From Lentiprolixibacter aurantiacus (GTDB taxonomy: Bacteria > Bacteroidota > Bacteroidia > Flavobacteriales > Flavobacteriaceae), in contig NZ_JAPFQP010000001.1 in assembly GCF_026241225.1 (NCBI RefSeq), forward strand, positions 186,001 to 250,000: a stretch of DNA of 64,000 nt, in the 5' to 3' direction. Positions 19,256 to 31,294 of this stretch are shown in pieces; position 1 is the stretch's first letter, and each line of letters starts with the position of its first letter. The position numbers and the translations under genes are program-made. Below the pieces are notes generated by a model. That model did no database searches. It was not told where the DNA came from and worked only from the letters and a program-made list of their open reading frames with translations.

Positions 19256-20740
19256 ATGGGACTAACGATTTCTTATCTTGTCATTGCGATCTACAGTATC
19301 GCCCTGATCCTCATCTTTCTGTATAGTCTTTCCCAGTTGAACCTGCTGGTAAACTACCTCAGCAATAAAAGACGCAACCAGGAAGCCCCTAAATTCAACT
19401 TGCTGGATCCCAAGGAAATTCCGTTTGTCACCATTCAGCTCCCTATCTACAATGAAAAGTACGTTGTGGAGCGCTTACTGGACAATATTGCTAAAATAGA
19501 ATACCCCAAAAGCAAGTTGGAAATACAGGTTCTGGATGATTCTACTGACGACTCCGTAGCAGAAACAGCAACACGTATCGAGGCCTTACAAAACACTGGG
19601 CTGGACATTCAGCATATTCGCAGGGAGAACCGTGAAGGTTTCAAAGCCGGCGCCCTTAAAGAGGGGCTCAAGATAGCCAAAGGGGATTTCATTGCCATTT
19701 TCGATGCAGACTTCCTCCCGGACAGTGACTGGTTGAAAAAGACAGTGATCTATTTTAAGGATGAAGAAATTGGAGTGGTCCAAACCCGTTGGGGACATAT
19801 TAATCGGGATTATTCGACCCTGACCCGTATACAGGCTTTTGCCCTGGATGCACATTTTACCCTGGAACAAGTGGGCCGGAATTCTAAGGGGCATTTCATA
19901 AACTTCAACGGTACGGCAGGAATATGGAGGAAAACCTGTATCCTGGATGCCGGTAACTGGGAAGGTGATACCCTCACAGAAGACCTGGATCTGAGCTATC
20001 GTGCCCAGTTGAAGAACTGGAAATTCAAATACCTGGAAGACGTGGAGACCCCGGCGGAATTACCGGTGGTTATAAGCGCCGCCAGGTCCCAGCAATTCCG
20101 ATGGAACAAGGGAGGGGCAGAAAACTTCAGGAAGACTGTTCTTAGTGTGATCACTTCCAAAAACATCCCGTTCAAGACCAAATTCCATGGGGTAATGCAT
20201 CTGCTGAACAGCAGCATGTTCCTTTGTGTATTCATGGTTGCTGTACTGAGTATCCCTATGCTTTATATCAAAAATTCGTACGGCCACCTGGGCTGGATTT
20301 TCGAGGTTACCAGCTTTTTCATTGTAAGTACCATCATACTCTTCATTTGTTACTGGTTTACTTACCGAAGCATACAGGGGAGCAGCTTTGATCATTTTGT
20401 GGACTACATAAAACTATTCTTTACCTTTTTCTCGGTTGCACTTGGATTTTCCTTGCACAACACCGTTGCCGTACTTGAGGGGCATATGGGCAAGCGAAGT
20501 GAGTTTGTGAGAACGCCAAAGTTCAACATCAACAGTATCACAGACAGCTGGAAAGGAAATAAATACCTGACCAAAAAACTTTCTCCGAACATGATCCTGG
20601 AATTCGGGCTGATGCTTTACTTCCTTTTTGGAATGTACAGTGCCATTCCCCTGAATGATTTTGGTTTGTTCCCATTTCACCTGATGCTTTTCCTCGGATT
20701 TGGATTTGTGTTTTTCAAATCCCTGACGGCTAAAGCCTGA
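19256..20740 (+). CDS. Membrane GT2 glycosyltransferase, cellulose-synthase-like
   Basis: A 494-residue processive-type GT2 enzyme. An N-terminal transmembrane helix (about 5-28) precedes the catalytic domain with VTIQLPIYNEKYVVERLL, DDSTDDS, IFDADFLP (DxD), TEDLDLSYRAQ and QFRWNKGGAENF (the Q-x-x-R-W block). Four or so transmembrane helices follow. The family includes ceramide glucosyltransferases and glucomannan/cellulose synthases; a glycolipid or short polysaccharide product is likely. It sits 1 bp after a polyprenol-type GT2 gene and about 90 bp before a GT87-like gene. Confidence 0.88.
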   Translation: MGLTISYLVIAIYSIALILIFLYSLSQLNLLVNYLSNKRRNQEAPKFNLLDPKEIPFVTIQLPIYNEKYVVERLLDNIAKIEYPKSKLEIQVLDDSTDDSVAETATRIEALQNTGLDIQHIRRENREGFKAGALKEGLKIAKGDFIAIFDADFLPDSDWLKKTVIYFKDEEIGVVQTRWGHINRDYSTLTRIQAFALDAHFTLEQVGRNSKGHFINFNGTAGIWRKTCILDAGNWEGDTLTEDLDLSYRAQLKNWKFKYLEDVETPAELPVVISAARSQQFRWNKGGAENFRKTVLSVITSKNIPFKTKFHGVMHLLNSSMFLCVFMVAVLSIPMLYIKNSYGHLGWIFEVTSFFIVSTIILFICYWFTYRSIQGSSFDHFVDYIKLFFTFFSVALGFSLHNTVAVLEGHMGKRSEFVRTPKFNINSITDSWKGNKYLTKKLSPNMILEFGLMLYFLFGMYSAIPLNDFGLFPFHLMLFLGFGFVFFKSLTAKA

Positions 20741-20830
20741 TAATTACTTTTTGACAGATTTAGGGGCCAATTGTTCTGGCACCGTTCAGCAATTTTTCAG
20801 TTATTTGTAGGACGACTTAGCTGACTGAAC

Positions 20831-22189
20831 TTGCTGAAATCACTACGCAAATATTGGAATCTGCATAGGCTCTCTATACTGATCATCCTGGCTTCAGTTA
20901 TATTTTATTTTGTATTTGCCTATCAACTGGAACGTCAGGACTTTCCAAAACTATTAGGCCTCTACCTTGCGCTTTTTTTCTTTTGCTTTAAGCTGATCCA
21001 ATTTGAAAAATGGAATTTCAAACTGCTACTTGTAGCAGGAATCCTTTTCAGAGTGGTATTTCTCTGGTCAGAACCCAACCTTTCCCAGGACTTTTACCGC
21101 TTCCTGTGGGACGGGCATCTCTGGATTCTGGGCGGCAACCCTTACCTGAATACCCCTGATGAACTTATGGCCATGGGTGGTATGCAGATCCCGAATGCTT
21201 CAGTGCTTCACGAAGGCATGGGAGCGCTAAGCTCTCGGAACTACAGTAATTATCCGCCCCTTAACCAGTTGTTTTTTGCACTGGCCGCCCTTTGGGGAGG
21301 TAAGAGTATAATGGGAACCGTTATAGCGAGCAGGCTTATCCTCATTTTTGCAGATATTGGAATCTTCTATTTCGGGAAAAAGCTGTTGTTGTTCCTCAAT
21401 CGTTCCCCCCATCTGATTTTTTGGTATTTCCTGAACCCGCTGTGTGTAATAGAACTCACAGGAAACCTGCATTACGAAGGACTGATGCTGTTCTTTTTCA
21501 TTTGGGCCTTATATATGCTCGCCGTAAACCGATGGGTCCCTGCGGCATTGCTCCTGGGAGCATCTATATCCATAAAACTGATCCCCCTGCTATTCCTTCC
21601 TCTTTTCCTGAAAAATTTGGGCTGGCTTAAAAGCCTTGCTTTTTACAGCCTGGTTTTTCTACTTGCGGGCATTTCGTTGATGCCTTTCTACACTGCTGAA
21701 TTCTTTCCAAATTATACGGCTACTTTGCGTCTCTGGTTTTCCAATTTCGAATTCAATGCCAGTCTGTATAATCTCGCAAAAACCATAGGTTACCAATTCG
21801 ATATCAGGTCCTGGGAGCTGATCAGAGTTTACGGAAAAATAACACCATTGATTACAGCATTAACCGTATTCTTGCTATCGTTTTTGAGGAAAAGAACACT
21901 TGGCGTATTGCTGGAAAATATGCTAATTGCCATCAGCATCTTCTATTTTATGTCCCCTACGGTACATCCCTGGTATATAATATTTCCGCTGGCCATATCC
22001 CTTTTTACAAATTACCGCTTCCCAATCCTCTGGTCTGCCCTCGTTATGCTGAGTTATTCTGCTTATATGCACCCTCAGGTAAAAGAATCCATGCTAATGC
22101 TCTCCATTGAATATATTATAGTATTTGGTTTCCTGTGCTATGAATTATTCAGGCATAAGTCCTATAAATCCTTATTTCAGAAAAATTAA
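20831..22189 (+). CDS. Multi-spanning mannosyltransferase-like protein (GT87/GT-C type)
   Basis: A 452-residue membrane protein with about ten hydrophobic segments. The first large loop carries SQDFYRFLWDGHLWILGGNPY, with an Asp and aromatic cluster typical of GT-C polyprenol-phosphate-dependent mannosyltransferases (GT87/PIG-M-like). The late MSPTVHPWYIIFPLAI block is also common in that group. It would use a lipid-linked sugar such as the one made by the upstream GT2 enzyme. The start is a TTG at 20831; no in-frame ATG or GTG precedes the first membrane segment. The arginine promoter begins 10 bp after its stop. Confidence 0.82.
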   Translation: MLKSLRKYWNLHRLSILIILASVIFYFVFAYQLERQDFPKLLGLYLALFFFCFKLIQFEKWNFKLLLVAGILFRVVFLWSEPNLSQDFYRFLWDGHLWILGGNPYLNTPDELMAMGGMQIPNASVLHEGMGALSSRNYSNYPPLNQLFFALAALWGGKSIMGTVIASRLILIFADIGIFYFGKKLLLFLNRSPHLIFWYFLNPLCVIELTGNLHYEGLMLFFFIWALYMLAVNRWVPAALLLGASISIKLIPLLFLPLFLKNLGWLKSLAFYSLVFLLAGISLMPFYTAEFFPNYTATLRLWFSNFEFNASLYNLAKTIGYQFDIRSWELIRVYGKITPLITALTVFLLSFLRKRTLGVLLENMLIAISIFYFMSPTVHPWYIIFPLAISLFTNYRFPILWSALVMLSYSAYMHPQVKESMLMLSIEYIIVFGFLCYELFRHKSYKSLFQKN

Positions 22190-22199
22190 GAGGGCTTCT

Positions 22200-22228
22200 T
22201 TGTCAGTTCAGTAGATTTTGTACATTTG
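22200..22228 (+). promoter_or_regulatory. Promoter of the arginine operon
   Basis: TTG at 22200-22202 and TACATTTG at 22221-22228, with an 18-bp spacer, form a full Bacteroidota-type promoter. The same 18-bp spacing is found at the susC promoter in this window. The start of transcription should lie about 22235, immediately at the ATG of the leader peptide. A GGAGG just before that ATG would then be outside or at the very edge of the transcript. Confidence 0.7.
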
Positions 22229-22235
22229 GAGGAGC

Positions 22236-22316
22236 ATGAAAAATAAAGCGCACATAACGGTTTCTTTACACGGCCTCTTTCGTCCGTTAGCTACTCCGCG
22301 CAACCGCCGCCCGTAA
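22236..22316 (+). CDS. Putative arginine leader peptide (26 residues)
   Basis: A 26-codon frame starts with ATG at 22236, a few bases from the predicted transcription start, and ends at TAA 22314-22316. It begins MKNKAHITVSLHGLF and ends RPLATPRNRRP. Four Arg codons (CGT, CGC, CGC, CGC) fall in the last eleven positions, three of them within the final five, directly before the first gene set for arginine synthesis. This is what a ribosome-sensing leader peptide should look like: scarcity of charged tRNA-Arg would stall the ribosome near the stop codon. Translation would have to be leaderless or nearly so. Not shown experimentally; chance remains possible for so short a frame. Confidence 0.55.
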   Translation: MKNKAHITVSLHGLFRPLATPRNRRP

Positions 22317-22356
22317 GGGTGTAATTCTGTCATGGGAAATAGGTGAGTCCATTTCC
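22255..22356 (+). promoter_or_regulatory. Structured leader of the arginine operon, candidate attenuator
   Basis: Several short stems can form in the leader. TAACGG (22255-22260) pairs with CCGTTA (22284-22289), and a competing ACGG/CCGT pairing (22270-22273 with 22284-22287) excludes it. A 5-bp stem with a GUAA tetraloop lies at 22308-22321 and has the leader-peptide stop codon in its loop. GGAAAT (22335-22340) pairs with ATTTCC (22351-22356) around an inner GG/CC pair. A T-rich stretch (TTTTT at about 22373-22377) follows after a 16-base gap, so no textbook intrinsic terminator is present. A Rho-dependent or translational mechanism would fit better. Confidence 0.4.
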
Positions 22357-22403
22357 GCAAAATCTTCCGATCCTTTTTAGTTTTAAGTTCAAATCGAAAA
22401 GCA

Positions 22404-23021
22404 ATGAAAATTGTAATTGCTAACGAATCTCATATAAAATACGCACAAGTCATCAGCGATACCATTACGGAATCTGCAAAAGTCAGGGGTACGGGAATAG
22501 CCCGGCGAACCCCTGAGTACATCATAAAGCGACTGGAGAATGGCAATGCGATAATAGCTCTTGATGGTGATAAATTTGCAGGCTTTTGCTATATCGAGGT
22601 ATGGGGGCATAAGAAGTTTGTTGCTAACAGCGGACTTATCGTTCACCCGGATTACCGCAAACAGGGCCTGGCCAAAAAGATCAAGAAAGCCATCTTTGAT
22701 CTATCGAGGAAAAAATTCCCGGATGCCAAGATATTTGGTATTACCACTGGTCTTGCCGTTATGAAAATGAACTACGAACTGGGCTACAAACCAGTTACAT
22801 TCTCCGAACTGACAGATGATCCGGAGTTCTGGAAGGGTTGTCAGACCTGCAAGAATTTCGACGTGCTTACCCGTACAGATCACAAGATGTGTCTGTGTAC
22901 AGGCATGCTTTACGACCCAAATGACAAAACCAAGATCCAAAAATCAAAAGGACCAGGTAAATCCATAAAATCACTGAAAAATATCAAGACTAACCTGTTC
23001 TCAAAAAAAGACAAGAAATGA
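22404..23021 (+). CDS. GNAT acyltransferase, probable N-acetylglutamate synthase of the arginine operon
   Basis: A 205-residue protein of the GNAT fold: SGLIVHPDYRKQGLAKKIKKAI (about 76-97) contains the acetyl-CoA pyrophosphate loop (RKQGLAK). A C-terminal stretch holds a Cys cluster (GCQTCKNF...KMCLCTGM), which could bind zinc. It is the first structural gene of the arginine operon and overlaps argG by 4 bp. No argA or argJ is otherwise present, so it is the natural candidate for the first step, acylation of glutamate. Whether it uses acetyl-CoA or succinyl-CoA cannot be told from the sequence. Confidence 0.83.
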   Translation: MKIVIANESHIKYAQVISDTITESAKVRGTGIARRTPEYIIKRLENGNAIIALDGDKFAGFCYIEVWGHKKFVANSGLIVHPDYRKQGLAKKIKKAIFDLSRKKFPDAKIFGITTGLAVMKMNYELGYKPVTFSELTDDPEFWKGCQTCKNFDVLTRTDHKMCLCTGMLYDPNDKTKIQKSKGPGKSIKSLKNIKTNLFSKKDKK

Positions 23022-24208
23022 AAAAATTGGTATTAGCCTATAGCGGCGGCCTGGACACTTCCTATTGTGCCATACACCTTTCCAAAGAAAAAGGCTATGA
23101 AGTACATGCCGTTACCGTAAATACCGGCGGATTCACTGAAGCGGAAATATCCGAAATAAAAGAAAAAGCACTGCAGTTAGGAGCAAAGTCCTATAAAGCC
23201 ATAGATGCCGTTGGAACGTTCTACGATAAAGTGGTTAAATACCTGATTTATGGCAATGTCCTCAGAAACAACACCTATCCCCTGTCCGTCAGTGCAGAGC
23301 GGATAGTTCAGGCCATGGAGATCGTAAACCATGCCAAAAGTATTGGTGCCGATAGTATTGCTCATGGAAGTACAGGGGCCGGGAACGACCAGGTCAGGTT
23401 TGATATGATTTTTCAAATACTGGCTCCGGAAATAGCAATAATTACCCCCATCAGGGATATGCGACTTTCCAGGCAGGAAGAAATCACCTACCTTCAGGAA
23501 CAGGGTATTGACTACTCCTGGGAAAAGGCAAAATACTCCATAAACAAAGGGCTTTGGGGCACTTCGGTTGGTGGAGATGAAACCTTGAGTTCTCACCTGC
23601 CCTTGCCCGATGAGGCCTTCCCAAGTCCCCTGCAAAAAGAAGATCCCGGTCAAATTAAACTGAGCTTTAATAAAGGAGAATTGGCTGCCCTGAACGACGT
23701 AAAAGGCAGCCCGGTTGAAATCATAGAGAAACTAAGCAATCTGGCATCTCAATATGCTATTGGGCGGGATATCCATGTTGGTGATACTATTATAGGGATA
23801 AAAGGTCGTGTGGGTTTCGAAGCTGCCGCCCCGCTGATAATCATCAAGGCCCATCATCTGCTGGAAAAACATACACTGAGCAAATGGCAACAGTATCAGA
23901 AAGAACAACTGGGGAATTTTTACGGTATGCTGCTGCACGAAGGAAACTACCTGGACGAGGTAATGCGGAATATTGAGGCTTTTCTTGAAGATACGCAGAA
24001 GAATGTGAGTGGAGATGTATTTATAAGCCTCCATCCATACCGGTTTGAGTTGGAGGGAATCTCCTCGCCCCACGATCTTATGAATGCCTCTTTCGGAAGC
24101 TACGGTGAATGGAATGAAGGCTGGACCGCTGAAGACGCCAAGGGATTCATCAGGATCCTTTCCAATCCGGGAAAAATAGCTAACCATGTAAATAATAGTC
24201 ATGATTAA
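23018..24208 (+). CDS. argG: Argininosuccinate synthase
   Basis: The 396-residue enzyme joins citrulline and aspartate with ATP to give argininosuccinate. The N-terminal PP-loop AYSGGLDTSYC (8-18) binds ATP, and GSTGAGNDQVRFD (about 112-124) is a signature of the family. Length fits the bacterial short form. The ATG overlaps the stop of the GNAT gene (ATGA), and its own end overlaps argC by 8 bp, so translation of the three is coupled. Unlike many genomes, argG stands at the front of the operon and argH at the end. Confidence 0.97.
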   Translation: MKKLVLAYSGGLDTSYCAIHLSKEKGYEVHAVTVNTGGFTEAEISEIKEKALQLGAKSYKAIDAVGTFYDKVVKYLIYGNVLRNNTYPLSVSAERIVQAMEIVNHAKSIGADSIAHGSTGAGNDQVRFDMIFQILAPEIAIITPIRDMRLSRQEEITYLQEQGIDYSWEKAKYSINKGLWGTSVGGDETLSSHLPLPDEAFPSPLQKEDPGQIKLSFNKGELAALNDVKGSPVEIIEKLSNLASQYAIGRDIHVGDTIIGIKGRVGFEAAAPLIIIKAHHLLEKHTLSKWQQYQKEQLGNFYGMLLHEGNYLDEVMRNIEAFLEDTQKNVSGDVFISLHPYRFELEGISSPHDLMNASFGSYGEWNEGWTAEDAKGFIRILSNPGKIANHVNNSHD

Positions 24209-25175
24209 GGTAGGAGTCATTGGAGGTTCTGGGTATACCGGAGGCGAACTTCTCCGTTTGCTTTCAGCCCACAGCCAGGTAGAACTCAGCTTTGTTTACA
24301 GCAGAACACGGGCAGGCAAACCCGTTTCCAGTGCTCACCCAGATCTTCTTGGGTTAACTGATCTCAGGTTCAGTGGTGAGGTACAGCCCGATGTAGACCT
24401 GGTCTTTCTTTGCCTGGGACACGGGAACAGCAGAAAATTCTTAGAGGAACAAATATTTAGTCCGGAGACAAAGATAATTGACCTTAGCAGTGATTTCAGA
24501 CTTAAAGAAGACTGTTCCTTTAACGGACAACCTTTTGTGTATGGACTGCCGGAGCTTTATAAAGAGCAAATTCAACAGGCCAGCTATATAGCTAATCCGG
24601 GATGTTTCGCCACTGCAATACAACTGGCCCTGCTCCCCATGGCCAGGATGGGTATCCTGACAGGCGATGTGCATGTCAATGCCACAACGGGCAGTACGGG
24701 GGCTGGAGTAGTTCCTTCAGAAACAACACATTTCAGTTGGCGTAACAATAATGTTTCCTGGTATAAAGCCTTTACGCATCAACACCTGGATGAAATAGAA
24801 GAGAGCCTGGACAATGAACAAACCAACAGGGGGGACTTACTTTTCCTACCTGTTCGCGGAAACTTCAGCAGGGGGATTTTTGCAACTGCCTATACGCGGT
24901 ATAATGGTGATCAGGACACTGTAGTAAACCTCTTCAAAGATTACTACCGCGAAGCAGCTTTTACCCAAATAAGTGAACATCCCGTTCATTTGAAACAGGT
25001 GGTCAACACCAATCAGTGCCATTTGCATGTCCACCTAGGTGAAGGTGTACTCTTGGTGACATCAGTAATTGATAACCTGCTGAAAGGGGCATCCGGACAG
25101 GCGGTACAGAATATGAACCTGATGTTTGGGTTTCCCGAGACGAAAGGCCTAAACCTGAAAGCAAGTGCGTTTTAA
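24201..25175 (+). CDS. argC: N-acetyl-gamma-glutamyl-phosphate reductase
   Basis: A 324-residue NADPH-dependent reductase of the third step. The N-terminal GVIGGSGYTGGELLRLL binds NADP, and IANPGCFATAIQLALLP carries the catalytic Cys. The late HQHLDEIEESL supplies the active-site His region. The length is typical of the short (type 1) ArgC. It starts inside the end of argG and is followed after 31 bp by proC. If the pathway runs on N-succinyl intermediates, as in Bacteroides, this enzyme would act on the succinyl analogue; the sequence alone does not say. Confidence 0.95.
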   Translation: MIKVGVIGGSGYTGGELLRLLSAHSQVELSFVYSRTRAGKPVSSAHPDLLGLTDLRFSGEVQPDVDLVFLCLGHGNSRKFLEEQIFSPETKIIDLSSDFRLKEDCSFNGQPFVYGLPELYKEQIQQASYIANPGCFATAIQLALLPMARMGILTGDVHVNATTGSTGAGVVPSETTHFSWRNNNVSWYKAFTHQHLDEIEESLDNEQTNRGDLLFLPVRGNFSRGIFATAYTRYNGDQDTVVNLFKDYYREAAFTQISEHPVHLKQVVNTNQCHLHVHLGEGVLLVTSVIDNLLKGASGQAVQNMNLMFGFPETKGLNLKASAF

Positions 25176-25206
25176 ATAGCTCCCCTAACCTCAAAAAACA
25201 AACAAC

Positions 25207-26004
25207 ATGAAAATAGCAATAATCGGAACTGGGAATTTGGGCAAATCCATTGCCAAAGGTATCCTCCACAGCAACGGGGCTACCAAAATGTATCTCACAA
25301 AAAGACACCCCGATAGTATCCGCGATTTTGAGAAATACGGAAACGTCAAGGTCACTGCGAACAACAGGGAGGCTGTGGCCGATTCGGACATTCTGATCTT
25401 TGCCGTGCAACCAGGTCATTTCAGTGATATCCTGCTTGAAATAAAGGACCTGCTCACAGACAAACATGTTGTTATCTCTACGATCACGGGCTTTAGCATA
25501 AAAAGAATTGAAGAGTTGATCGGGAAGGAACACTATATAATAAGGAGTATGCCCAATACAGCTATTTCAGTTGGAAAGTCCATGACCTGTCTCTGCGGCA
25601 ATGAAGCAGGCCAGAAACGTATCGATCTGGCAAAAGCCATATTTAACAGAATGGGGCATTCCCTTGAAATCCCGGAAGAACAGATGCAGGCAGCCACAGT
25701 AATCTGTGCCAGTGGCATCGCTTTCTGGATGCGTTTGATACGGGCTACCACCCAGGGAGCGATCCAACTCGGATTTGATGCCCGCGAAGCCCAGGAACTG
25801 GCCATGCACACCTGCGACGGGGCAGCTGGACTACTAATAGCCTCCGGCAACCACCCGGAACAGGAAATAGACAAGGTTACCACTCCTATGGGTTGTACTA
25901 TTCAGGGATTGAATGAGATGGAACATCAGGGCCTGTCTTCTTCCCTCATCAGAGGTATTGTCGCTTCATTTGAGAAGATCAATGATTTCAAAATCAATTC
26001 GTGA
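25207..26004 (+). CDS. proC: Pyrroline-5-carboxylate reductase
   Basis: A 265-residue enzyme that reduces 1-pyrroline-5-carboxylate to proline with NAD(P)H. It has the N-terminal Rossmann motif IAIIGTGNLGKSIAKGI, the family block RSMPNTAISVGKSMTCLCG (about 117-135), and the C-terminal helix stretch VTTPMGCTIQGLNEMEHQG. Its presence between argC and argD is a Bacteroidota habit that ties proline formation to the glutamate/ornithine branch. It could also act on a related five-membered imine arising from the acylated semialdehyde, though that is only a guess. Confidence 0.95.
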   Translation: MKIAIIGTGNLGKSIAKGILHSNGATKMYLTKRHPDSIRDFEKYGNVKVTANNREAVADSDILIFAVQPGHFSDILLEIKDLLTDKHVVISTITGFSIKRIEELIGKEHYIIRSMPNTAISVGKSMTCLCGNEAGQKRIDLAKAIFNRMGHSLEIPEEQMQAATVICASGIAFWMRLIRATTQGAIQLGFDAREAQELAMHTCDGAAGLLIASGNHPEQEIDKVTTPMGCTIQGLNEMEHQGLSSSLIRGIVASFEKINDFKINS

Positions 26005-26027
26005 GACCCTAATAACAACTTTGGCAA

Positions 26028-27155
26028 ATGAAACTTTTTGATGTCTACCCCCTTTATAAAGTTACGCCGGTCTCAGCCCGGGGAATCACTATCACGGATG
26101 AAGATGGGAAAGAGTATCTTGATTTTTACGGGGGCCATGCCGTGATTTCAATAGGGCACTCCCACCCCACCTATGTGAGCCGGCTGAAAGCGCAGTTAGA
26201 TAAAATGGGCTTCTACAGTAATTCTGTTGCCAATCCCCTTCAGGAAAAACTGGCCTACAAACTCTCCAAAATGGCACATTGCGAACAATATCAATTGTTC
26301 CTATGCAATTCCGGGGCCGAAGCCAATGAGAATGCTTTGAAACTAGCTTCTTTTCATACGGGTAAATCCAGGGTCATTGCCTTTAACAATAGTTTTCACG
26401 GAAGAACTTCAGCAGCAGTTGCCGTTACCGACAACCCTAAAATAACTTCCCCACTGAACAGTCAGCACCAGGTGACTTTCCTTGATTTCGAGGACAGGGA
26501 ATCTCTGGAAAGGGAATTGGCAAAAGGAGATGTCTGTGCCGTTATACTGGAAGCTATACAGGGGGTTGGCGGACTGGATCAGCCTTCCACAGCCTTTTAC
26601 CACTTCCTTGCAGAAAGCTGCAATAAGCATAAGGTTATGCTCATAGCAGATGAGGTGCAATCCGGTTTCGGAAGAAGCGGGAAATTCTTCGCCTTTCAAC
26701 ATTATGGGGTGGAACCCGATATCATAAGCATGGCGAAAGGCATGGGAAATGGCTTTCCGGTTGGGGGGATCCTGATACATGAAAAGATCAGGGCTTCCTT
26801 TGGGATCCTTGGAACGACCTTTGGCGGAAACCATCTGGCCTGTACAGCTGTCCTGGCAGTGCTGGAAGTACTGGAGTCTGAAGACCTGATTGCTAATGCC
26901 GCCGCTTTAGAAGGTTTTTTCAGGGAAGAGGCTGCAAAAATTCCACAGGTAAAAAGGGTCAAAGGGCGCGGCCTTATGCTGGGTCTTGAATTCGATTTTG
27001 AAGTAGCGCCTTTGCGCGAAAAACTGATTTATGAACACCAAATATTTACCGGGGGCGCGAAAGACAGGCATGTATTGCGAATTCTGCCATCGCTGGGAGT
27101 AAAACGCGATGAACTCCAACAATTTTTTATCGCACTTAAAGCCGCGCTTTCATGA
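26028..27155 (+). CDS. argD: Acetylornithine (acylornithine) aminotransferase
   Basis: The 375-residue class III PLP aminotransferase moves an amino group from glutamate to the acylated semialdehyde. The pyridoxal lysine lies in SMAKGMGNGFPVGG (about 239-252), with ADEVQSGFGRSGKFFAFQHY upstream supplying the Asp that contacts the PLP nitrogen. NSGAEANENALKLA near residue 94 is the phosphate-binding block. It overlaps argF' by 4 bp. The arginine-binding site that decides between N-acetyl and N-succinyl substrate cannot be judged by eye. Confidence 0.95.
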   Translation: MKLFDVYPLYKVTPVSARGITITDEDGKEYLDFYGGHAVISIGHSHPTYVSRLKAQLDKMGFYSNSVANPLQEKLAYKLSKMAHCEQYQLFLCNSGAEANENALKLASFHTGKSRVIAFNNSFHGRTSAAVAVTDNPKITSPLNSQHQVTFLDFEDRESLERELAKGDVCAVILEAIQGVGGLDQPSTAFYHFLAESCNKHKVMLIADEVQSGFGRSGKFFAFQHYGVEPDIISMAKGMGNGFPVGGILIHEKIRASFGILGTTFGGNHLACTAVLAVLEVLESEDLIANAAALEGFFREEAAKIPQVKRVKGRGLMLGLEFDFEVAPLREKLIYEHQIFTGGAKDRHVLRILPSLGVKRDELQQFFIALKAALS

Positions 27156-28096
27156 AACACTTTACCTCTGTTTTAGATATACCATCCCTGGGCAACTGGC
27201 TTGAAGATGCAAAAGCTTTAAAAAAGGATCCCAGGGGGCACTTGCATCTGGGAAAAGGCAAAACCCTGGGGCTATTGTTCTTTAATAATAGCCTTAGGAC
27301 CCGCCTAAGCACACAGAAAGCAGCCATCAACCTGGGTATGGATGTGATGGTGATGAATTTTGGCAAAGAAGGCTGGGCACTGGAATTTGCCGATGGTACT
27401 GTAATGAATGGCCAAAGTGCCGAACATATCAGGGAAGCTGCACGGGTAGTATCTCAGTATTGCGATATTTTGGGAATCAGGGCATTTGCTCAATTAGAAA
27501 ACAGAGAACTGGACGAGTCGGAACCTGTCCTTAACGGATTCCTGCAACATGCAACCATACCAGTTGTCAATCTGGAAAGTGCATTAGGGCACCCCTTGCA
27601 AGCCCTGGCCGATGCCATTACCCTGGAAGAAAACCGCATTAAAAAACAACCCAGGGTGGTGCTTACCTGGGCACCTCATCCCAGGGCCCTGCCACATGCC
27701 GTTGCCAATTCATTTGTACAAATCATGCAACGCATGCCTGTGGACCTTTCTATAGTGCAACCGTCAGGCTACGAACTGGATAAGTCCATCATAGGGAATA
27801 CCCCGGTTTATTTCGATCAGGCAAAAGCACTGCAAGGGGCAGATTTTGTCTATGCCAAAAACTGGAGCAGCTTTGAGCAATACGGGCAGGTGGTCAGTGA
27901 AGATCAGGACTGGATGGTTACAAAGGAAAAGCTCGGGGATGCGAAATTTATGCATTGCCTTCCCGTAAGGCGAAACGTAGTGGTGGAAGATGCCGTGCTT
28001 GAAAGTGAACAATCTTTGGTGATTCAACAGGCAAATAACAGAACTTATTCGGCTCAACTGGTGCTGAAGAAATTACTGGAAGGACTAACGCTGTAA
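27152..28096 (+). CDS. argF': N-acetyl/N-succinylornithine carbamoyltransferase
   Basis: A 314-residue transcarbamylase of the class that acts on N-acylornithine instead of ornithine. Carbamoyl-phosphate motifs are FFNNSLRTR (43-51), ALGHPLQALAD (HPxQ) and HCLPVRR. The strong match to the Bacteroides fragilis succinylornithine enzyme (NSSLRTRLSTQKAALNLGM in that protein) puts it in this branch. At the position that sets substrate choice, Pro90 in B. fragilis SOTCase and Glu92 in Xanthomonas AOTCase, this protein has Ala90 (in NGQSAEH). Its substrate is therefore open. It starts in the ATGA overlap with argD. Confidence 0.93.
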   Translation: MKHFTSVLDIPSLGNWLEDAKALKKDPRGHLHLGKGKTLGLLFFNNSLRTRLSTQKAAINLGMDVMVMNFGKEGWALEFADGTVMNGQSAEHIREAARVVSQYCDILGIRAFAQLENRELDESEPVLNGFLQHATIPVVNLESALGHPLQALADAITLEENRIKKQPRVVLTWAPHPRALPHAVANSFVQIMQRMPVDLSIVQPSGYELDKSIIGNTPVYFDQAKALQGADFVYAKNWSSFEQYGQVVSEDQDWMVTKEKLGDAKFMHCLPVRRNVVVEDAVLESEQSLVIQQANNRTYSAQLVLKKLLEGLTL

Positions 28097-28106
28097 TAAT
28101 TTAGGA

Positions 28107-28886
28107 ATGAAGAGGGAACTTAGCATTGTAAAAATTGGCGGTAATGTAATTGAGAATTCCAGTGAACTCAACAACTTCCTGAGGCTTTTCAGCGCCCTGG
28201 ACACGCATAAAATACTGGTTCACGGGGGTGGTAAGAAAGCCACGGAAATCGGGCAAAAATTAGGGATTAAGTCAAAAATGATTGAAGGCAGGCGCATCAC
28301 CGATGCGGGCAGCCTTGACGTGGCATTGATGGTTTATGCCGGCCTGGTAAACAAGAAAATAGTAGGTACATTACAGGCTATGGATTGTAACGCCCTGGGT
28401 TTAAGCGGTGCCGATGCCAACCTGGTACAGGCATACAAAAGACCGGTAACTAAGGTAGATTTTGGTTTAGTGGGAGATATTAGCGGGGTCAACGCATCAG
28501 CATTAAAAAACTTTCTCGAGATGGGTATGGTTCCTGTTTTTTGCGCTCTGACCCACGACCAAAAGGGGCAAATGCTTAATACCAATGCAGATACCATAGC
28601 AGCAGAACTGGCCATTGCCCTGAGTTCAAACTATAAGGTTACCCTATATTACTGTTTTGAAAAACAGGGAGTTCTTATGGATAAAGATGATGAGCAGTCT
28701 GTTATACCCGATATCAATTGGACTTCATACCAGCAGTTGATTACTGACCGCATTATAACGGATGGGATGCTGCCAAAAATGGAAAATAGTTTCAGGGCGC
28801 TTAAATCCAAAGTAGCGCGGGTCTGTATTGGAAATATATCCATGCTGGAATCCGGCAAAAGCCTTTATACAACCCTAAGCTTATGA
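28107..28886 (+). CDS. argB: N-acetylglutamate kinase
   Basis: The 259-residue amino acid kinase phosphorylates N-acylglutamate, the second step. It shows IVKIGGNVI at the N terminus, LVHGGGKKATEIG (phosphate-binding glycines), GLSGADANLV and the late LNTNADTIAAELAIAL. The length is that of the short, arginine-insensitive E. coli type, without the N-terminal helix that gives arginine feedback in hexameric enzymes. Arginine control is thus more likely at transcription or at the GNAT step. It lies 10 bp after argF' and overlaps argE by 4 bp. Confidence 0.95.
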   Translation: MKRELSIVKIGGNVIENSSELNNFLRLFSALDTHKILVHGGGKKATEIGQKLGIKSKMIEGRRITDAGSLDVALMVYAGLVNKKIVGTLQAMDCNALGLSGADANLVQAYKRPVTKVDFGLVGDISGVNASALKNFLEMGMVPVFCALTHDQKGQMLNTNADTIAAELAIALSSNYKVTLYYCFEKQGVLMDKDDEQSVIPDINWTSYQQLITDRIITDGMLPKMENSFRALKSKVARVCIGNISMLESGKSLYTTLSL

Positions 28887-29977
28887 AAAATGAACTGCAA
28901 ATACTGACAGAAAAGGCGCTGGGGCTTCTTAAGGACCTGATCTCCACACCTTCTTTTTCATCTGAGGAAGAAAACACCGCTGAAGCCATTGAACTCTGGT
29001 TCCACGAATTTGGAATACCCGTAAAGAGATGGCACAACAATGTTTATGCTTTTAACAAGTATTTTGACCCATCTAAACCCACCCTGTTGCTTAATTCGCA
29101 TCACGACACGGTAAAGCCCAATAAAGCATACACCAGAGATCCATTTCATCCACATATTGAGGATGGGAAATTATACGGCCTGGGAAGTAATGATGCCGGG
29201 GGCAGCCTTGTTTCTCTTATGGCCACCTTTGTGCATTTTTATAACTGGGAAAATCTCAGCCATAATCTGATCATTGCAGCTACAGCTGAAGAAGAAACGG
29301 CCGGTGACAAAAGCCTCAGGGGATTGCTTCCTCACTTGCCTGAGATCGCCGTGGCTATTGTTGGTGAACCTACACTGATGCAGCTCGCGGTAGCCGAAAA
29401 AGGACTTATCGTCTTTGATGCTGAGATCAAGGGAACCCCATCCCATGCCGCACATCCAAATAACAATAACTCCATCTACAACAGCATTCAAGTACTGGAA
29501 TGGTTTAAGAATTATAGGTTTGAAAAGGTTTCGGAAGTCCTCGGGGAGGTAAAACTAACCGTAACCCAAATCAATGGAGGCTCCCAGCATAACGTGGTTC
29601 CGGCTAAAATTGATCTGGTTATCGATGCAAGGGTCAATGATTGTTATTCCAATGAAGAAATTGCCGAAATCCTGGAAAGGGAAGCGCCCTGCGCTATAAA
29701 ACCACGATCGCTACGCCTGAATTCGTCATCGATTAGTCGGGACCACCTTTTGGTACAAGCCGGAATTGCACTGGGAAGGGAAACCTATGGTTCCCCAACA
29801 TTGTCGGACCAGGCAGCACTGGATTGCCAGTCACTGAAACTTGGTCCGGGAGACAGCACCCGCTCCCATTCTGCAGATGAATTTATCTATGTACGTGAAG
29901 TGGAAGAAGGTATTCAACTCTATATTAATTTGCTCCATAAGTTTTTGGAAAAACCAGAACAATCATTAGACTTATGA
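28883..29977 (+). CDS. argE: M20 family N-acylornithine/N-acetylcitrulline deacylase
   Basis: A 364-residue metallopeptidase-type deacylase. LLNSHHDTVKP carries the first zinc His and Asp, GLGSNDAGGSL the bridging Asp, and ATAEEETAGDKSL the catalytic Glu pair. A dimerisation domain (SHAAHPNNNNSIYNSI...) sits in the middle and the last metal ligand is likely in STRSHSADEF. Because the transcarbamylase of this operon acts on N-acylornithine, this enzyme probably removes the acyl group from N-acylcitrulline rather than from acylornithine. It overlaps argB by 4 bp and precedes argH by 30 bp. Confidence 0.92.
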   Translation: MKNELQILTEKALGLLKDLISTPSFSSEEENTAEAIELWFHEFGIPVKRWHNNVYAFNKYFDPSKPTLLLNSHHDTVKPNKAYTRDPFHPHIEDGKLYGLGSNDAGGSLVSLMATFVHFYNWENLSHNLIIAATAEEETAGDKSLRGLLPHLPEIAVAIVGEPTLMQLAVAEKGLIVFDAEIKGTPSHAAHPNNNNSIYNSIQVLEWFKNYRFEKVSEVLGEVKLTVTQINGGSQHNVVPAKIDLVIDARVNDCYSNEEIAEILEREAPCAIKPRSLRLNSSSISRDHLLVQAGIALGRETYGSPTLSDQAALDCQSLKLGPGDSTRSHSADEFIYVREVEEGIQLYINLLHKFLEKPEQSLDL

Positions 29978-30007
29978 GCATTACCTCGAAAAGTAAAGAA
30001 GCAGGAT

Positions 30008-31294
30008 ATGAAACTATGGGATAAAGGACAAAGCACAGATAAAAAAATTGAAGCCTTCACGGTTGGAAATGACCGGGAACTGGACCTGGTCCTGGCGTAC
30101 TATGATGTAAAAGCCTCAATGGCACATGCAAAGATGCTGGCCAGGGTTGGCCTGATCTCCAGGAAAGAAGGAGATGCGCTCCTGGAAGAGCTGAAAGCCA
30201 TTGAAAACTCCATTGAAAAGGGTGAGTTTACGATTGAAGAAGGTTTTGAGGACATGCACTCTAAAATCGAATACCTGCTGACCCAAAAACTTGGGGATAC
30301 CGGGAAAAAAATACATACGGCCCGTTCCCGCAACGATCAGGTACTGGTTGCCATGCAACTTTACCTGAAGGATGAAATTAAGTCCATTGAAACCGCCGTA
30401 TCTGAATTATTTACGCTCCTTATAACTCTTGCGGAAACCCATAAATCTGTCCTGATCCCTGGTTACACGCATCTGCAGATTGCCATGCCTTCATCTTTCG
30501 GTTTATGGTTTTCCTGTTATGCGGAAAGTCTTATTGATGATATCCACTTATTGAAAGCTGCCCGGAAAATTACGGACCAGAACCCATTGGGAAGTGCAGC
30601 GGGCTATGGAAGTTCATTTAACATAGACCGTTCATATACCACGGAATTAATGGAATTCGAAACCATGAAGTACAATGTGGTAGCAGCTCAAATGGGGCGC
30701 GGTAAAGTGGAAAAATCTCTGGCCTTTGCCATGGCCAGCCTGGGGGGTACCCTTAGCAAACTGGCTATGGATTGCTGCCTGTATATGAGTCAGAATTTTG
30801 ACTTTATTTCTTTCCCTGATCAATTAACTACGGGGAGCAGCATAATGCCACATAAAAAAAATCCGGATGTGTTTGAACTGATCAGGGCCAAATGCAACGT
30901 GCTTCAATCCCTTCCCAATACCTTGATCATGCTGACAAATAACCTGCCTAGTGGCTACCATCGGGACCTGCAGCTGTTAAAGGAAAATATACTCCCCGCT
31001 ATTGAAACTCTGAAGAGTTGCCTGGAGATCACCACCTTCAGTATGGCACAGGTAGAAGTGAGTCAAGATATTCTGAATGACTCCAAATACGATTATCTGT
31101 TCAGCGTGGAAAACCTTAATGCACTGGTTAAGGAAGGGATGCCCTTCAGGGATGCCTACAAGAAACTCGGAAAAGATATTGCCAGTGGCAGTTACCAGCC
31201 AAACAAGAAACTGGAACATACCCATGAAGGTAGCATTGGAAACTTATGCCTTGGGGAGATAACCCGAAAAATGGAGCAGGCACTTAAAGGATAA
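30008..31294 (+). CDS. argH: Argininosuccinate lyase
   Basis: The 428-residue enzyme splits argininosuccinate into arginine and fumarate. The superfamily signature GSSIMPHKKNPD (about 278-289) is complete, and HTARSRNDQV near residue 98 and TPGYTHLQ-like PGYTHLQIAMP near 152-162 match the active-site blocks. It is the last gene of the arginine operon. It is slightly shorter than the common 460-residue form and diverges in the C-terminal third, as is usual in Bacteroidota. A 68-bp gap leads to the BLUF gene on the same strand. Confidence 0.95.
   Translation: MKLWDKGQSTDKKIEAFTVGNDRELDLVLAYYDVKASMAHAKMLARVGLISRKEGDALLEELKAIENSIEKGEFTIEEGFEDMHSKIEYLLTQKLGDTGKKIHTARSRNDQVLVAMQLYLKDEIKSIETAVSELFTLLITLAETHKSVLIPGYTHLQIAMPSSFGLWFSCYAESLIDDIHLLKAARKITDQNPLGSAAGYGSSFNIDRSYTTELMEFETMKYNVVAAQMGRGKVEKSLAFAMASLGGTLSKLAMDCCLYMSQNFDFISFPDQLTTGSSIMPHKKNPDVFELIRAKCNVLQSLPNTLIMLTNNLPSGYHRDLQLLKENILPAIETLKSCLEITTFSMAQVEVSQDILNDSKYDYLFSVENLNALVKEGMPFRDAYKKLGKDIASGSYQPNKKLEHTHEGSIGNLCLGEITRKMEQALKG

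Follow-up and report, generated by a model that had tools for sequence, protein, structure and literature searches.

A widely conserved candidate arginine leader with an unusual two-hairpin layout precedes the arginine operon in Flavobacteriaceae

Arginine synthesis is commonly cited as a pathway governed by a repressor protein, ArgR, and in fungi it has the arginine attenuator peptide, a leader peptide of about 24 residues encoded by the arg-2/CPA1 uORF, which acts in eukaryotes through nascent-chain arrest and whose sequence is not known to be related to that of the leader reported here. The classical attenuators, namely those of the trp, his, thr and leu operons of enterobacteria and the Bacteroid-trp RNA (RF01692; PMC2864571), share with this leader a short upstream ORF that is rich in codons of the product amino acid and lies near hairpins. 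Arginine is sensed through two consecutive Arg codons, with a hairpin past the stop and the participation of Rho and mRNA decay, in Salmonella speF orf34 (SpeFL) (PMC6386406), and arginine limitation is sensed by an Arg-codon leader peptide in S. aureus rbfL (PMC13009471). The ORF of Sinorhizobium rnTrpL/peTrpL lies at the transcript 5′-end (PMC7298713), and therefore leaderless attenuator leaders are known. Additionally, the F. psychrophilum transcriptome study remarks in general terms on leader peptide attenuation upstream of amino-acid operons (PMC9723704), and leaders with short ORFs are reported from B. thetaiotaomicron (PMC7366714). Among the titles and abstract beginnings listed by full-text searches of the open-access literature, none described an arginine-operon attenuator in Bacteroidota; an earlier note on this DNA knew of none of such form.

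Here, we analyzed a window, that is, the whole stretch of 64,000 nucleotides taken from the 3.13 Mb genome of Lentiprolixibacter aurantiacus, in which a leader precedes an arginine operon of nine genes (Table 1). The earlier note, made from the sequence alone, had pointed out a promoter, a 26-codon Arg-rich frame, a stop in a hairpin loop and a second stem, all of which were confirmed base for base. The leader peptide reads M K N K A H I T V S L H G L F R P L A T P R N R R P stop, and the ORF listing gives its frame from an upstream TTG at 22218. The second gene of the operon is argG, from 23018; in NCBIfam, the matches of argD and of the deacylase fell below the curated cut-offs, and the other genes from argG to argH each had one match above. 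Relatives of the GNAT first gene were not found in viral contigs. The GNAT protein also carries a Cys-rich stretch, CQTCKNFDVLTRTDHKMCLC (window 22839-22898), which could be a metal site.

Table 1. Features of the arginine leader and operon, in window positions
Feature	Positions	Strand	Basis
Promoter: TTG (22200-22202), 18 bp, TACATTTG (22221-22228)	22200-22228	+	Read from sequence
Predicted 5′ UTR of about 3 nt, predicted start A22233	22233-22235	+	Prediction from F. psychrophilum box spacing (PMC9723704)
Leader ORF, 26 codons, MKNKAHITVSLHGLFRPLATPRNRRP-stop; Arg codons CGT, CGC, CGC, CGC	22236-22316	+	Sequence, relatives
HP1: CGCCC-GTAA-GGGTG, stop TAA (22314-22316) in loop	22308-22321	+	Folding, variants in divergent members
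HP1-HP2 linker, TAATTCTGTCATG in window, T-rich family-wide	22322-22334	+	56 representatives
HP2: GGAAAT-A-GG-TGAGT-CC-ATTTCC; six-pair stem, bulged A, two G-C pairs, loop TGAGT	22335-22356	+	
Spacer up to first gene, G-poor family-wide, terminator not found	22357-22403	+	
GNAT-family N-acetyltransferase, operon gene 1	22404-23021	+	Weak NCBIfam match NF005840, below its cut-off
argG, argC, proC, argD, N-acetyl(or succinyl)ornithine carbamoyltransferase, argB, argE/dapE-like deacylase, argH	23018-31294	+	NCBIfam, ORFs

The GNAT protein is present in 266 of the 397 genomes of the family, and among the matches listed, the named loci nearest to the first gene belong to Flavobacteriaceae bacterium D16, an Eudoraea and a Muriicola. 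The close loci, which draw on the best 80 named loci of at least 495 GNAT relatives, are ranked by GNAT similarity with near kin over-represented; loci L001-L110 minus two whose contigs begin inside the gene (L003, L032) and 11 duplicates make up 97 distinct upstreams, with L093 kept. Taking as leader an ATG frame upstream of GNAT that ends in Pro, with two or more Arg among the last six codons, a leader ending R-P-stop occurs in 96 of these 97, and the single miss is a contig with only 123 bases upstream (L093). The leader length varies from 22 to 30 codons (26 or 27 in 81/96), the promoter spacing and the stop context are retained, and the distance from the leader stop to GNAT is 82-98 nt. 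Codon -2 (CGC), codon -1 (CCG) and the GGGT directly after the stop are invariant in 96/96. Codon -3 encodes Arg in 88/96 leaders (CGT 68, CGC 20) and Pro in 8, and codon -4 encodes Arg in 91/96 (CGT 52, CGC 38, CGA 1), so that both Arg codons vary synonymously, at the third base; such conserved Arg codons with synonymous changes are what the earlier note had proposed to look for in related genomes. Over 342 pairs of leaders, which are not independent of each other, the differences at codon positions 1, 2 and 3 number 1506, 952 and 1867.

Arg is also enriched along the leaders, with a mean of 4.1 per leader and 15% of the leader residues versus 3.6% in eleven window genes. CGT or CGC makes up 278 of the 297 Arg codons of the 96 leaders when the fixed codon -2 is left out, and 100 of the 118 outside the last four codons, compared with 40 of 138 in the eleven window genes, where AGG is the commonest, a comparison that is indicative as it uses the codon usage of the window alone. 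The CGY codons are read by one tRNA-Arg (anticodon ACG), and since the leader Arg codons are mostly CGY, the leader may report on a single tRNA-Arg isoacceptor. Based on the established principle of attenuation and on the conservation of the leader, we consider it highly likely that this is an arginine-codon sensor; the suggestion in the earlier note that the leader senses arginine supply thus appears well supported, by the conserved Arg codons and by the covarying second hairpin (HP2) described below.

In 94 of the 96 leaders, the gap between the end of a promoter box, TANNTT[TA][GA], and the ATG measures 5-9 nt, and in 62 it is exactly 7 nt; of the remaining two, one has the box at 2 nt and the other (L101) is without it. 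The sigma-A box of F. psychrophilum occupies -12 to -5 relative to the transcription start (PMC9723704), so the start in the window is predicted at 22233, giving a 5′ UTR of about 3 nt rather than zero. Set against the 0-5 nt of leaderless mRNA, this predicted value, which derives from the promoter spacing, corrects the earlier note in placing the start at 22233 and not at the ATG itself. Because the box spacing is kept in 94/96, the predicted near-leaderless start is itself conserved. A GGAGGAG just 5′ of the leader ATG resembles a Shine-Dalgarno sequence, is not conserved among relatives, and would mostly be untranscribed if transcription starts at the predicted 22233. The sigma-70 promoter scan of the window does not cover the flavobacterial promoter type.

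The first hairpin, HP1, folds at -7.2 kcal/mol (z -3.1), and its 5′ arm combines the last Arg codon with two bases of the Pro codon; codons -2 and -1 both form this arm, which accounts for their fixity. Among 40 non-redundant close relatives, HP1 is invariant except for the outermost pair, which is broken in 3, and it shows no covariation; in divergent members, a paired change to CGCAC/GTGCG is found. These belong to a distant set of 60 upstreams of lower GNAT similarity, taken from 107 further regions, in which 48/60 Arg-rich frames end R-P-stop, 3/60 end R-R-T-stop (L165, L179, L185) together with an HP1 of the CGCAC/GTGCG type, 5/60 read through HP1 and end just beyond it (L158, L168, L171, L206, L211), and 4/60 are unclear or lost (L178, L188, L199, L201). 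The translated stretch lacks an in-frame ATG in 10 of the 48, several of which have GTG or TTG instead. In three genomes of genus g127 (L219, L220, L236), the GNAT gene is kept, and a stretch of about 440 bases upstream yielded neither the Arg leader nor HP2; of 20 same-family genomes listed as having no match to the two-hairpin model R1, 19 belong to this genus. Docking of the HP1 GUAA loop as a GNRA loop was rejected as a general feature, as GTAG, TTAG, CTAG and GTTT loops occur.

The fixed end of the leader could also be read as an arrest peptide of the kind known from TnaC, SpeFL or the fungal AAP, with an R-R-P-stop chain that would stall at the stop with free arginine bound. R-P precedes the stop in 96/96 complete close and 48/60 distant leaders, and the leader of L245, from another family, also ends R-P-stop inside a hairpin. 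However, codons -2 and -1 double as the HP1 5′ arm, Pro becomes Thr where HP1 changes (L165, L179, L185), and five distant leaders read past the Pro; beyond HP1, only Arg -3 and -4 are widely kept, with Pro -1 following HP1. Besides, the upstream residues differ between clades, and to our knowledge the known arrest peptides do not vary their upstream residues between clades in this way. The retention of the residue rather than the codon at Arg -3 and -4 is compatible with both tRNA sensing and an arrest peptide. On balance, we regard an arrest peptide as improbable.

Some Flavobacteriaceae have a second, distal Arg leader (e.g. MKNLKNKIRCTIPGLPVRSRRRF) about 200-310 nt before GNAT, forming tandem leaders. 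Such loci are L196 (-297 to -225 from GNAT), L174, L180, L184, L186, L187, L191 and L192, and further L193, L197, L200, L205, L214 and L216. In tandem loci, the HP1-proximal frame ending R-P-stop is often very short (MRRIFPRRP); the second of the two is without an in-frame ATG in L186, L191, L193 and L200, and L199 keeps the distal leader only. In L179, L206 and L211, CAAATAATATTA is complementary to TAATATTATTTG, the two flanking the distal leader at about -270 and -180 from GNAT, and a long-range stem around the distal leader reaches p <0.05 in 5/25 loci, being strongest in L179 and L211.

The second hairpin, HP2, lies in a 26-nt stretch that folds at -7.7 kcal/mol (z -2.2). For the whole family, 62 representatives were compared, with L191 and three members without the loop motif left out beforehand; as the MAFFT alignment misplaced the HP2 5′ arm, the counts were taken from a scripted layout that chooses a bulge length of 1 or 2, with the same choice in the null. 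Of the 372 cells that the six stem pairs make up, 360 hold a canonical pair, with 32 distinct stems represented, versus 308±5 paired cells when the 3′ arms are permuted (highest of 2000 permutations, 324), a test that ignores kinship and is to be read as strong, not as a probability. In the 40 close relatives, two HP2 pairs show double changes, in 10 cells; the cell number is reached by 0/500 shuffles, and the number of such pairs (2) by 239/500. Of the covarying stems that the earlier note had suggested looking for, HP2 provides one (360/372 paired versus 308±5), and HP1 in the 40 close relatives does not.

In contrast to the changing stem, the loop region of HP2 is nearly fixed. Of 157 upstreams, 151 carry the exact loop motif GGTGNGTCC, 3 differ from it by up to two changes and 3 lack it, and the bulged A adjoins the inner pairs in 60/62 representatives. 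In L210 and L215, two of the three near-misses, and in L218, all of which have AGATGNGTTC, changes in both arms turn the second inner pair from G-C into A-T, and as a result of this paired change the invariant part of HP2 is reduced to the predicted UGNGU pentaloop and the bulged A, both nearly fixed. The same change weakens the idea that HP2 is a Shine-Dalgarno mimic (AGGTGA). In the genome, AGGTGNGTCC occurs at 21 sites, with a stem of at least 5 pairs only at the arg site and at two sites opposite long ORFs, and the strict HP2 pattern, when 3 mismatches at most are allowed, matches once. Given the nearly fixed bulged A and UGNGU loop, HP2 is probably a contact site for a factor, the polymerase or the ribosome. 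A nearly fixed loop and bulged A on a covarying stem is the pattern of a binding site, and it could be argued that the RNA element acts alone, HP1 and HP2 binding a protein or arginine and the ORF being incidental. This we hold to be very improbable, since the conservation of Arg codons with synonymous changes extends beyond the hairpins, the differences concentrate at third codon positions, and other families have Arg leaders with different hairpins.

In the class, the GNAT gene is found in 70 of 198 genomes. For the other families, 35 of 40 loci were used, 5 same-family loci being left out, and 22/35 upstreams carry a short ATG frame with at least three Arg in eight codons near its end; first-order shuffles give an expectation of 2.1 such upstreams, and the reverse complement has 4. 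Among these 22 Arg leaders, 10 have their stop inside the loop of a hairpin (2.9 expected), and a terminator-like site follows the leader in 8 (1.7 expected), most clearly in L237. In this locus, a strong intrinsic terminator comes after the Arg leader MKQVLLNYRSLRRRPYAAG, and the 5′ arm of this terminator appears complementary to the last codons of the leader. In L226, L228, L238 and L241, also of other families, GCGTA, the 3′ arm of the stop hairpin, is complementary to a downstream TACGC (TGCGC in L226), a pairing that resembles the classical switch. Matches to model R1 reach E 0.1 in 37/246 genomes of the order and 88/395 of the phylum, and those with E <2e-5 all lie inside the family; eight weaker loci outside it (L126-L131, L142, L143) were inspected, and none resembles the arg leader. 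Rfam gave three weak matches below the gathering score in window 20000-26000 with E up to 5, none of them at the leader.

Chance could be invoked for the ORF and hairpins, which would then have no regulatory function, as the folding of the single leader sequence is not significant (185-nt leader versus shuffles, z +1.03; 71-nt core, z -0.69), and therefore the case against chance rests on comparison. The leader in 96/97 close relatives, the conservation of the Arg codons, the HP2 covariation and the leaders of other families contradict this explanation, whose probability we take to be negligible.

The repressor offers a further comparison. The ArgR C-terminal domain (PF02863) has no match in the window genome, and it matches 72/198 phylum genomes, 71 of them outside the class and one, weakly, within it; with the domain absent here and 71 of the 72 matches outside the class, an exchange between the repressor ArgR and the leader, in whichever direction, is likely on these genomic grounds. 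Upstream of hisG in the same genome (L278 from 1352), a GTG frame reads M K T N N T H H H F Y T C T Q A R, its start lying close behind a TAATTTTA box, and is followed by a long stem and a T run (1434-1463). It has the appearance of a textbook histidine attenuator, and so the organism appears to use ordinary attenuation elsewhere. Upstream of ilvD, no clear leader was found.

As to the output step, the linker between HP1 and HP2 consists of 55% T and 7% G and is 10-15 nt long, 11-13 nt in 53 of the 56 representatives (of 62) whose HP1 fits the search expression. A terminator-like rule, requiring HP1 and a T-rich tract, is passed by 31/62 representatives versus 4.0 expected, an excess that is overstated because the shuffle null destroys HP1 too. 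The window is not among them, its tract after HP1 being TAATTCTG with 4 T in 8, and no Rho-independent terminator was found on the + strand from the leader to the first gene in the window; the remark in the earlier note that no textbook intrinsic terminator is visible thus holds for the window. Pairing of an antiterminator was not found in the window in silico, and a classical 2:3 antiterminator was rejected, since by eye no partner tracks the change of the HP1 3′ arm from GGGTG to GTGCG. When a ribosome was masked in silico at the Arg codons or the stop, in the 54 of the 62 representatives whose HP1 fits the search expression, the mean HP2 pairing was unchanged, and the RBS showed no predicted effect of the ribosome position (mean difference -0.002). 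Any single output route, whether termination, Rho or a translational one, seems unlikely when taken by itself.

One such route would couple the Arg-codon sensor to Rho, with the leader ribosome deciding on Rho loading at the unstructured, G-poor RNA between HP2 and the gene, and with HP1 and HP2 merely tuning access. The spacer has a low G content, 6.7% over the 62 representatives versus 15% in 21 window spacers, the window lacks an intrinsic terminator, and in Salmonella the speF orf34 with its two Arg codons acts partly via Rho (PMC6386406). However, the background spacers are few and come from a single genome, and the spacer of the window itself has 12% G. An upstream stall would expose RNA to Rho at low arginine, which has the wrong sign unless the stall alters the structure, and such a change was not predicted in silico; the fixed HP2 loop would also stay unexplained. 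A Rho-dependent output is an unlikely explanation, if a stronger one than the arrest peptide.

Based on the layout of the locus, we propose that the leader acts in cis, sensing charged tRNA-Arg with gating at HP1 in some form, a combination we think somewhat better than an even prospect. When charged tRNA-Arg is scarce, the ribosome would halt at codons -4 to -2, on CGY, and cover the HP1 5′ arm, so that HP1 would stay open and the polymerase would enter the operon. When arginine is plentiful, the ribosome would finish and leave, and HP1 could fold behind the polymerase in the T-rich linker, leading to a transcription pause or early end, perhaps aided by Rho or another factor. Arginine shortage would thus very probably switch the operon on, a direction that we infer from the role of the operon. 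HP1 is the simplest gated element, because it incorporates both the stop and the last sensing codon, and a ribosome at the end of the leader would hold it open. As the gated element alone, HP1 is nevertheless a somewhat doubtful candidate: the poor T tract of the window makes it a poor intrinsic terminator, termination there would leave the strong conservation of the downstream HP2 without explanation, and a weak terminator is odd here when the his operon of the same genome has a textbook one. Tentatively, and with rather less confidence, a reduced attenuator may be envisaged, in which one hairpin would be part of the codon sensor, stop context and gated structure at once and HP2 would recruit a factor. 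It would have neither an antiterminator nor an ordinary terminator, the factor at HP2 turning HP1 occupancy into termination, pausing or decay, and it might be specific to Flavobacteriaceae and the arginine operon, standing in there for ArgR.

In conclusion, this work reports a widely conserved arginine leader element with an unusual layout, undescribed as far as the literature searches go. Control of arginine synthesis in a large bacterial family seems to rest on two hairpins and a leader peptide with a near-leaderless start, and in further families of the class on different Arg leaders. The system offers a direct and cheap test of the codon-supply reading in bacteria that seldom rely on Shine-Dalgarno sequences, and HP2, a covarying hairpin whose loop hardly varies, provides a concrete bait for its binding factor.

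Compared with the described systems, speF orf34 controls polyamine synthesis and not an arginine biosynthesis operon, has its transcription start 516 nt upstream and a masked RBS, and encodes a peptide of a conserved family (PMC6386406). The rbfL leader uses the rare codons AGG and AGA and belongs to a biofilm regulator, its stalled ribosome blocking the next RBS and thereby repressing, and hairpins of the HP1/HP2 kind are not mentioned in the available portion of that report (PMC13009471); rnTrpL/peTrpL serves the Trp operon, and its RNA and peptide act in trans too (PMC7298713). Unlike the classical attenuators, the arg leader in the window is without a strong terminator or antiterminator pairing, the last sensing codon and the stop belong to HP1, an extra hairpin with a conserved loop is present, and the amino acid is arginine. 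Therefore, this leader, the function of which we infer from its sequence and conservation, differs in layout from the textbook attenuator.
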